Source: an uncultured Geobacter sp.
Lineage (GTDB): Bacteria; Desulfobacterota; Desulfuromonadia; Geobacterales; Geobacteraceae
DNA length: 34,776 nt
Direction: 5' to 3'
NCBI GenBank assembly: GCA_903915655.1
Contig: CAIWTU010000033.1
Coordinates: 1-34,776 of the forward strand
The translations under genes and the position numbers were made by a program. Below the pieces are notes generated by a model. That model saw only the letters and a list, made by a program, of their open reading frames with translations. It searched no databases and was not told the DNA's origin. The number at the start of each line of letters is the position of its first letter. Within the stretch, counting starts at the first letter, position 1. Shown here one piece after another: positions 1 through 1,055 of the stretch.

Positions 1-870
1 ATATGCCCTGGCAGAGAGAGTGTAGGCGCCGTTGGCTGCAGCAGCCGTATTCCAGCTGTAGCTGTAAGGTGCTACGTTGCTTGCTGCCAGGAGTATTCCG
101 TTTTCGAAAAATTCGACCCTGCTCACGGCAACGTTGTCACTCGCGATGGCAGCGATTGTCACGGTCCCGCTTACAGTGGCATTATTGGCCGGTGAGGTCA
201 CTGTAACCGTCGGAGAAATGCTGTCATTAACGACCGATACAGAAACATTGCCCGATTGCCCGACGTTGCCGGCCGCATCATACGCCTTAGTCATCAGCGT
301 ATAACTCCCTGCCGCAAGCGCTGTTGTGTTCCACGAATAAACGTATGGAGCCGTGGTGTCCGTTGCCTGAAGGAGACCGTTCAGATAATACTCTACCTTT
401 GTGACCCCTACGTTATCGGAAGCGGTGGCGGAAACCGAGACCGTCCCGCCGACTGTAGCGTTGTTGGCCGGGGATGTGAGGGAGACTGTCGGGGATGTCA
501 TTTCAGGGACGGCGACGATGTTCGAGTAGGAGCTCTCGATACCAGAGGTATTGTACGCGGTTACTGCGAAGTAGTAGGCATGGTTCGGGTCAAGGCCGCC
601 GACGGTTGCAGTGGTCTGTTTAAGGACATCGACGGGGGCAGCCCCTTGAATGGCGCCGGTCCCTTGAAAGGGGAGCGTCGATGCATCCGCCTGATAATAG
701 ATCTTGTAACCGGCAAGATCCGACTCGGCATTGGTATCCCACTGGAGGGTCACAGTCGTTGCGAAACAGGTTGTCTGCCAGGCGAGAAACAGAATCCATG
801 TAAATATCATGGCAAAAAATATTTCAAACCTGACAATCTCTCCTTTTCCTTCTGATTTTTTCGTGGCCAT
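1..870 (-). CDS. Secreted fibronectin type III / bacterial Ig-like repeat protein (partial, C-terminus off window)
   Basis: The reading frame starts at ATG 868-870 behind the ribosome site AAGGAGAGG and stays open for 290 codons to the window edge, so the C-terminus is missing. After a basic N-terminus there is a hydrophobic segment at about residues 17-37 (signal peptide or anchor, ending near the motif TTCFATT). Residues 40-121 look like a fibronectin type III domain, with a QWD start and YKIYY and YYFAVTAYN strands. Two Ig-like repeats follow at about 126-216 and 219-290+, each with SPTV.LTSPANNATV..TV, ASDNV.V..VE and YSWNT, resembling the Big_7 type. Such modules are usual in secreted, cell-wall or matrix proteins for adhesion or carbohydrate binding. 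The catalytic or anchoring part, if any, is not visible. The gene lies behind a GEMM-I riboswitch, which suggests second-messenger control of a surface or biofilm function. The exact role is unknown. Confidence 0.85.
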   Translation of the reverse strand, partial: MATKKSEGKGEIVRFEIFFAMIFTWILFLAWQTTCFATTVTLQWDTNAESDLAGYKIYYQADASTLPFQGTGAIQGAAPVDVLKQTTATVGGLDPNHAYYFAVTAYNTSGIESSYSNIVAVPEMTSPTVSLTSPANNATVGGTVSVSATASDNVGVTKVEYYLNGLLQATDTTAPYVYSWNTTALAAGSYTLMTKAYDAAGNVGQSGNVSVSVVNDSISPTVTVTSPANNATVSGTVTIAAIASDNVAVSRVEFFENGILLAASNVAPYSYSWNTAAAANGAYTLSARAY

Positions 871-895
871 TTGTCCTCTCCTTGTTCCCGGCATG

Positions 896-929
896 AAAAA
901 GCCGTGTTGTGTCTGCTTCACAACCCGGC
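896..929 (-). terminator. Second (promoter-distal) intrinsic terminator of the riboswitch leader
   Basis: On the minus strand GCCGGGTTGTG (929-919) pairs with CACAACACGGC (911-901). The 11-position stem has a single G/A mismatch, the loop is 7 nt, and TTTTT (900-896) follows. It lies 26 bases before the start codon. Its 5' arm can alternatively pair with the 3' arm of the upstream terminator. Confidence 0.75.
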
Positions 930-941
930 TTGATCAGTACC

Positions 942-988
942 AAAAAAGCCGGGTCCTTAATACCTCGTTGGTATTTCGGCAACCCGGC
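942..988 (-). terminator. First intrinsic terminator, overlapping the riboswitch aptamer
   Basis: On the minus strand GCCGGGT (988-982) pairs with ACCCGGC (954-948) and TTTTTT (947-942) follows. A small inner hairpin (AATACC/GGTATT) lies in the loop. The 5' arm belongs to the conserved 3' edge of the GEMM-I aptamer. Folding of the aptamer and of the terminator should therefore exclude each other, the usual layout of a ligand-ON transcriptional switch. Confidence 0.8.
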
Positions 989-1055
989 TGTCTCAAGGAG
1001 ACCCATTAGGCTTTCCGTCCCATCCTTGCGAATGGTTTAGTATTGTCGTTTACCG
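977..1055 (-). promoter_or_regulatory. GEMM-I cyclic-dinucleotide riboswitch aptamer (leader of the FN3/Ig protein)
   Basis: The minus strand shows the GEMM-I core: AAACC, a hairpin ATTC-GCAA-GGAT with a GNRA loop, GGGACGGAAAGCC, a GTCTC/GAGAC helix, then AGCCGGGTTGCCG. The 5' CGGTAA (1055-1050) can pair with TTGCCG (982-977) as closing helix P1. GEMM-I RNAs bind c-di-GMP, and a Geobacter subtype binds 3',3'-cGAMP. By hand alignment to the Vibrio Vc2 aptamer, the ligand-contacting G before AAACC is not a G here (A or T, depending on a one-base gap). That would fit the cGAMP-type or promiscuous subclass, but the alignment is uncertain at this point. Confidence 0.85.

Follow-up and report, generated by a model that had tools for sequence, protein, structure and literature searches.

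A tandem-terminator leader behind a predicted cGAMP-type GEMM-I riboswitch in Geobacter and its possible operation as a four-segment cascade

In four-segment attenuators of the trp type, overlapping RNA segments are arranged such that pairing of segments 2 and 3 (2:3) is the antiterminator of the hairpin formed by segments 3 and 4 (3:4). Attenuators of the rplJL type are similarly described with overlapping anti-antiterminator, antiterminator and terminator segments (PMC4538822). Two terminators in one leader have been reported for rimP of several Gammaproteobacteria, where tandem terminators are accompanied by a potential antiterminator (PMC2965389), and for tandem riboswitches like the Na+/c-di-AMP pair, whose T1 and T2 are described as acting independently (PMC9337991). 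Among riboswitches of the GEMM-I (c-di-GMP-I) family, in which position 20 of the aptamer governs ligand selectivity (PMC9262584), the cGAMP switches of Geobacter such as those of pilM and GSU1761 are described as ON switches that work through one terminator, with terminator and aptamer excluding each other (PMC9262584, PMC6456294). The c-di-GMP-I riboswitch Bc1 of the Bacillus cereus group carries two terminators 28 bp apart in one expression platform. Ligand opens T1 but not T2, and Bc1 appears to be locked in the OFF state; according to its authors, a dual terminator within one platform is rarely seen (PMC11218506). Two terminators in a row are expected to be less leaky than a single one, provided that one signal opens both; otherwise, as the description of Bc1 illustrates, a dual terminator can lock a riboswitch OFF.

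Here we describe a leader on the minus strand of a 34,776-nucleotide stretch of DNA from an uncultured Geobacter sp. (contig CAIWTU010000033.1; hereafter the window, meaning the whole stretch). By sequence and predicted fold, a single GEMM-I platform of the window holds two intrinsic terminators, which makes Bc1 its closest described counterpart in anatomy, with the same aptamer family and two intrinsic terminators in one platform. The published account of Bc1 has T2 staying folded with ligand and describes no 2:3 coupling, whereas such coupling is proposed here, a contrast drawn from the description of Bc1. The leader shares its aptamer family, ON logic and aptamer/terminator exclusion with the Geobacter switches of pilM and GSU1761, but these are described with a single terminator, and the window has a second one interlocked with the first. 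As in the accounts of the trp and rplJL attenuators, the segments overlap and 2:3 would antiterminate 3:4; there, however, 1:2 is a pause or anti-antiterminator hairpin, while in the window it is a predicted terminator and segment 1 lies in a riboswitch aptamer. The rimP leader resembles the window in its two tandem terminators and potential antiterminator, but it is a different leader whose description mentions no GEMM-I aptamer, and the Na+/c-di-AMP riboswitches have two terminators per leader as well, but are described with one aptamer for each. In the literature searched, we recognised no report of a single-aptamer leader in which an arm of the first terminator acts as the antiterminator of the second. 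An initial annotation of the locus had called the exact design unfamiliar; dual GEMM-I terminators are already in print with Bc1 (PMC11218506), and what stands of that claim is the coupling, which is not described there.

Table 1. Coordinates of the leader and its downstream gene in the window
Feature	Positions	Strand	Basis
c-di-GMP-I / GEMM-I riboswitch aptamer, A20 type (AATACTAAACC), predicted cGAMP-responsive	975..1051	(-)	Rfam RF01051
Segment 1, GCCGGGT: aptamer helix 3' strand and terminator 1 5' arm	982..988	(-)	sequence; Rfam consensus paired region
Segment 2, ACCCGGCTT: terminator 1 3' arm and proposed antiterminator strand for terminator 2	946..954	(-)	sequence
U-run after segment 2	947-942	(-)	sequence
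Terminator 1 (T1): 1:2 hairpin, inner AUACC/GGUAU hairpin, then UUUUUU	942..988	(-)	ViennaRNA fold
Segment 3, AAGCCGGGTTGTG: terminator 2 5' arm	919..931	(-)	sequence
First nine bases of segment 3, AAGCCGGGT, complementary to segment 2	931-923	(-)	sequence; arm runs on to 919
Segment 4, CACAACACGGCTT: terminator 2 3' arm	899..911	(-)	sequence
U-run after segment 4	900-896	(-)	sequence
Terminator 2 (T2): 3:4 hairpin, then UUUUU	896..931	(-)	fold; inner stem in consensus terminator scan; models R1 and R2
Ribosome-binding-site-like AAGGAG, 7 nt upstream of ATG	878..883	(-)	read from sequence
Downstream gene, fn3 + Big_7 (bacterial Ig) protein, 5' part; continues past contig end	1..870	(-)	translation; Pfam

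All four segments that the initial annotation had named were found in the sequence in the order that it gave (Table 1), and its 2:3 helix, in which nine Watson-Crick pairs enclose a 14-nt loop (945-932), is exact. The 3:4 helix of T2 contains one mismatch, A905 opposite G925. The stem region of T1 reaches -21.7 kcal/mol (ViennaRNA), and this terminator was missed by a simple terminator scan of the window with a loop limit of 8. The gene that begins with the ATG at 870 encodes a protein with fn3 (E 1.1e-09) and Big_7 (E 5.7e-46) domains by Pfam, which is probably secreted because it has, as judged by eye, a hydrophobic N-terminal stretch. No sigma-70-like promoter site was found in positions 860-1340, which we count against the cascade interpretation outlined below. 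We also considered that a coding sequence might run through T2 into the gene (window 868-921), since such a frame is open in six of the eight leaders checked; we rejected it as probably due to chance because, with respect to arm 4, every one of the three possible frames occurs among these eight.

The aptamer matches RF01051 over the complete model (1-87) at 51.5 bits, with a gathering score of 35, and is the only Rfam match above gathering in the window; in its genome, GEMM-I is matched 14 times at E <= 0.001, and 13 of these matches exceed the cut-off. In the alignment to RF01051, it carries an A at the position where the family consensus has G, and we take this to be position 20 (G20 of Vc2). 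An A in place of G20 is the mark of the GEMM-Ib subclass, and from it cGAMP is predicted as the ligand. The 3' strand of the aptamer's paired region doubles as the 5' arm of a terminator (segment 1, 988-982), as in transcriptional ON riboswitches. Aptamers of the AATACT type are very common in the family, the pattern being present in 47 of 48 genomes with at most 20 matches per genome. One related leader (L196, contig C89 of genome G120) shows GG near aptamer position 20 and is by eye of the predicted c-di-GMP type; its platform consists of T1, a segment-3-like AAGCCGG and a T2 remnant, and the tandem platform may therefore have moved from one ligand class to another.

On balance, we find it rather probable that the leader is a cGAMP-class GEMM-I ON riboswitch whose platform works as a four-segment cascade on two intrinsic terminators, a reading for which we infer the identity of the ligand, termination at T1 and T2, and a kinetic release. 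Without ligand, 1:2 would form T1, and any polymerase escaping it would meet T2, segment 3 being free to pair with segment 4. With ligand, segment 1 would be locked into the aptamer helix and T1 would fail; the freed segment 2 would then capture segment 3 ahead of the synthesis of segment 4, and 2:3 would keep T2 from forming until polymerase has passed. The G:A mismatch of T2 is located at the point where arm 4 has to start displacing segment 2 and would slow the formation of T2 while leaving 2:3 unharmed. As the initial annotation proposed, a very low OFF state would be expected of such a design. Such a leader suggests a route for coupling serial terminators, in that the displaced arm of the first becomes the antiterminator of the second, and it offers a compact natural model of RNA strand displacement during transcription as well as a template for tighter synthetic riboswitches.

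Our starting sample comprised 105 distinct leaders of the window's aptamer subtype from its family, among which a second terminator was recognised by eye in at least three (the window, L048 and L108, among the leaders listed). In a first automated scan for second terminators, L048 went undetected because of a bulge, and the weak A+T-rich hairpin that the scan gave for L020 was not counted. A covariance model of the T1 and T2 platform built from three leaders (R1) recovered the other tandem leaders in a search of 141 genomes of the order. When a second model built from 10 leaders (R2) was run on 277 genomes of the class, 10 of them yielded a total of 12 loci scoring 66 bits or more, a count that is a lower bound because stricter filters score few candidates per genome. 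Ten of these loci are the model's own training rows, and all 12 fall into two families, both of the window's order (Geobacterales); the next scores are 58.4 bits (a degraded leader of G040) and 51.6 bits. In a named genome collection, the T2 pattern occurs in two stretches, from Oryzomonas japonica (NCBI order Geobacterales) and from a Desulfuromonadales MAG. Across their first 140 residues, the proteins encoded downstream of eight loci share only 41-65% identity, so these tandem leaders are not recent copies and have had a long time to diverge. Four of the downstream proteins were compared with Pfam (fn3 in three, Big_7 in all four), and the remaining ones were assessed from their alignment. 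Across 10 leaders, 94.3% of the cells of the 1:2 helix are paired, and hardly any alignment is possible in the spacer that separates T1 from segment 3. Leader counts given here are not counts of independent events, since the leaders share descent.

Of the 12 loci that reach 66 bits, eleven enter the leader tables; the twelfth (G117a, L183, 71.0 bits) was omitted for its degenerate aptamer and segments, and G040, L010 and the C89 leader of G120 were omitted as degraded. The leader of G113 was retained and that of G114 (L186) used as an aside only; in both, no clear gene start was found within ~260 nt downstream. Our alignment (A6) has 10 rows, as G005 was absent after a shift by MAFFT and was added by script for the 11-leader counts. 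In its G027 row, segment 3 is one base out of register (one G deleted), which inflates the unpaired cells in counts from A6; the deletion was placed by hand in the 11-leader count, and in the predicted fold of this leader the A opposite is a bulge, not a mismatch. The omitted G117 locus is the first of two leaders, with a degenerate aptamer (AATTCTAAATAATCC) and both terminators degraded, and lies ~240 nt upstream of an intact tandem leader.

Energies, pairing probabilities and barriers of the eleven leaders were computed. The isolated 2:3 and 3:4 hairpins of the window come to -16.9 and -15.8 kcal/mol, respectively, so that both are predicted to be stable while being mutually exclusive, as in a four-segment attenuator. 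When the full leader is folded with nothing held, 1:2 and 3:4 form in all eleven (P >= 0.74 and P >= 0.94, respectively), suggesting two closed terminators as long as segment 1 is free. Holding the aptamer helix, of whose 10 chosen pairs 8-10 were enforceable, brings P(1:2) to zero in all eleven, and with segment 1 held and arm 4 not yet made, P(2:3) is at least 0.98 in ten of them (0.43 in G113). The mutually exclusive set of 1:2, 2:3 and 3:4 that the initial annotation had pointed out is thus real and recurs in related leaders, with both terminators predicted throughout. Its further proposal, that ligand frees segment 2 to take segment 3 and thereby releases both stops, agrees with the folds that precede arm 4 and disagrees with those at equilibrium: once the full transcript is present and the aptamer helix held, 3:4 beats 2:3 in 9 of 11 leaders, including the window (T2 0.77 vs 2:3 0.22), and 2:3 is favoured in G123 and G076 only. 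Any release of T2 would therefore have to be kinetic.

In the stretch from segment 2 to segment 4 folded without segment 1, P(2:3) amounts to 0.98 in the window, 1.0 in G123, 0.98 in G076 and 0.49 in G033a, and to at most 0.013 in the remaining seven leaders; replacing the mismatch of the window by C lowers the value from 0.98 to 0.001. The barrier to displacement of segment 2 by arm 4, as estimated by the heuristic findpath on secondary structure only, amounts to 10.3 kcal/mol for the window leader and drops to 3.4 kcal/mol with the mismatch mended, and the natural barrier exceeds that of the C version by at least 2.5 kcal/mol in 7 of 11 leaders. Mending changes little or nothing in G027, G076 and G113, and G005 already has C; these four have low barriers of 3-4 kcal/mol. 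Since T2 is also favoured at equilibrium in G027, G113 and G005, these three match the cascade poorly on barrier and equilibrium alike. At common base-pair rates, a barrier of 10 kcal/mol would correspond to seconds and one of 3 kcal/mol to far less than 1 second, with polymerase transit taking ~1 second.

The segments, their complementarity and their recurrence can be read from the aligned leaders, and so can an asymmetry in how T2 is mismatched. Segment 3 contains a GGG whose middle G has a pairing partner in segment 2 in all eleven leaders (10 C-G, 1 U-G), but one in segment 4 in only three (1 G-C, 2 G-U); the base that segment 4 places opposite is A in four leaders, G in another four, U in two and C in the remaining one. 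The position equivalent to A905 is thus unpaired in 8 of 11 leaders, compared with 0-2 of 11 at each of the other five positions of the 3:4 core. These counts indicate that the opposing base varies but rarely mends T2 while the G stays, and one base of segment 3 is kept where 2:3 pairing alone explains it. The recurrent mismatch therefore weakens T2 at the very site at which 2:3 is perfect. Outside the core, 3-5 of the 11 leaders have a break at any given position of the inner 2:3 extension, which counts against the cascade, and the extension pairs are Watson-Crick in 5-8 of 11. G005 has a G-C pair at the mismatch site of T2, and its 2:3 hairpin is the most stable of the eleven (-19.2 kcal/mol), with C-G where six other leaders have U-A. 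We tentatively suggest that the recurrent T2 mismatch is a kinetic latch blocking displacement of 2:3 by arm 4 while polymerase passes T2, so that one binding event, read once by segment 1, would open two serial terminators by relay; we give this idea slightly less than an even chance. If true, strand displacement in this riboswitch would be opposed by a purpose-built barrier, and because the key position is mismatched, wobble-paired or paired across eleven related natural leaders, the idea is directly testable.

Covariation of 2:3 in homologues, the absence of which would speak against the coupling according to the initial annotation, was absent from the core: no compensatory double change was found there over 10 leaders, and shuffles equal the observed covariation. 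This counts against the cascade, although the aptamer fixes segment 1 and hence segment 2 and any partner of it, so that covariation in this core is hardly possible. The only double change in 2:3 among the two-terminator leaders analysed concerns one pair outside the core, in G005. For 3:4, a double change from U-A to C-G in G076 keeps the pairing and supports T2 as a real hairpin.

For comparison with chance, we assembled 172 distinct leaders of the same aptamer subtype, of which 153 were scored and 19 remained unscored. A downstream stretch of at least 7 contiguous bases complementary to segment 2 by Watson-Crick pairing occurs in 14 of the 153, seven being tandem-terminator leaders and seven not (including G114). 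Shuffled downstream stretches contain 7 contiguous complements in 2.0% and 8 in 0.4% of cases, and the 2:3 complementarity exceeds chance. Two single-terminator leaders, L096 and L220, have exact segment 2 complements of 9 and 8 nt downstream and no second terminator; the complement in L096 is located ~20 nt upstream of the likely start codon.

The main rival to the cascade is a T2 that is a plain back-up terminator untouched by ligand, as in Bc1, with the 2:3 complementarity arising from the GCCGGG/CCCGGC arms that both terminators share. Bc1 itself provides the precedent, since c-di-GMP is reported to unfold its T1 but to leave intact a T2 that masks the response (PMC11218506), and both the preference for 3:4 at equilibrium in nine leaders with the aptamer held and the 2:3 core without covariation are in line with it. 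However, we infer that a strong unconditional T2 should silence the gene, yet the arrangement persists in front of genes with products only 41-65% identical, and independent terminators would not be expected to show a 3:4 mismatch opposite the very G that pairs with segment 2 in all eleven leaders. We therefore regard a ligand-independent back-up as unlikely, if still to be taken seriously. Much less probable, in our view, is that the end of the aptamer and T1 were once partly duplicated, with T2 and segment 3 as the decaying copy, and that the likeness of segments 1 and 3 is inherited, not functional. GCCGGGT is indeed common to both segments, and a segment 3 without a full arm 4 is seen in L010 of the same genome, in G114 and in the C89 leader of G120, but segment 3 and arm 4 are kept in two families although almost no alignment is possible in the spacer that precedes segment 3, and the U-A to C-G change of G076 has preserved the 3:4 pairing.

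It is also conceivable, if improbable, that T2 is the operative terminator and 1:2 mainly an anti-antiterminator as in classic attenuators, the stop at T1 being secondary or lost. This would fit the weaker-looking U-tracts of T1 in tandem leaders, where at most five T of seven are found in 5 of 11 compared with 13 of 143 others (18 more unscored) if the first core is picked (one-sided p 0.008), and the G033a leader, in which the T1 U-tract is degraded (AGACUUU). The contrast hinges on the rule for picking cores, however, since the best-core rule gives 6 of 11 versus 39 of 158 (3 more unscored; p 0.085) and unequal rules for the two groups give 5 of 11 versus 17 of 158 (p 0.014), and the p-values of both single rules are uncorrected for kinship of the leaders, so that weaker T1 U-tracts in tandem leaders are suggestive only. 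Moreover, T1 of the window has an intact UUUUUU and the more stable stem. As G033a retains 1:2, 2:3 and T2 despite its degraded U-tract, the cascade may be its chief route of ligand control.

Several related leaders depart from the platform of the window. On the minus strand of contig C32 of the same genome, a paralogous leader (L010) precedes a related fn3-type gene and keeps T1 and a segment-3-like CCGGGTTGTGAAG without arm 4; its segments 2 and 3 are both altered, to CCCGGT and ACCGGG, with their complementarity kept. The L186 leader of G114 (minus strand) has a 10-bp 2:3 helix directly followed by a U-rich run and no arm 4, and 2:3 could therefore act as a terminator itself in this case. 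Four other related leaders (L223, L224, L227 and L229) contain an extra hairpin-like stretch after T1, which lacks a U-run, lies near the likely ribosome-binding site and reads CCGGGC...GCCCGG in two of them.
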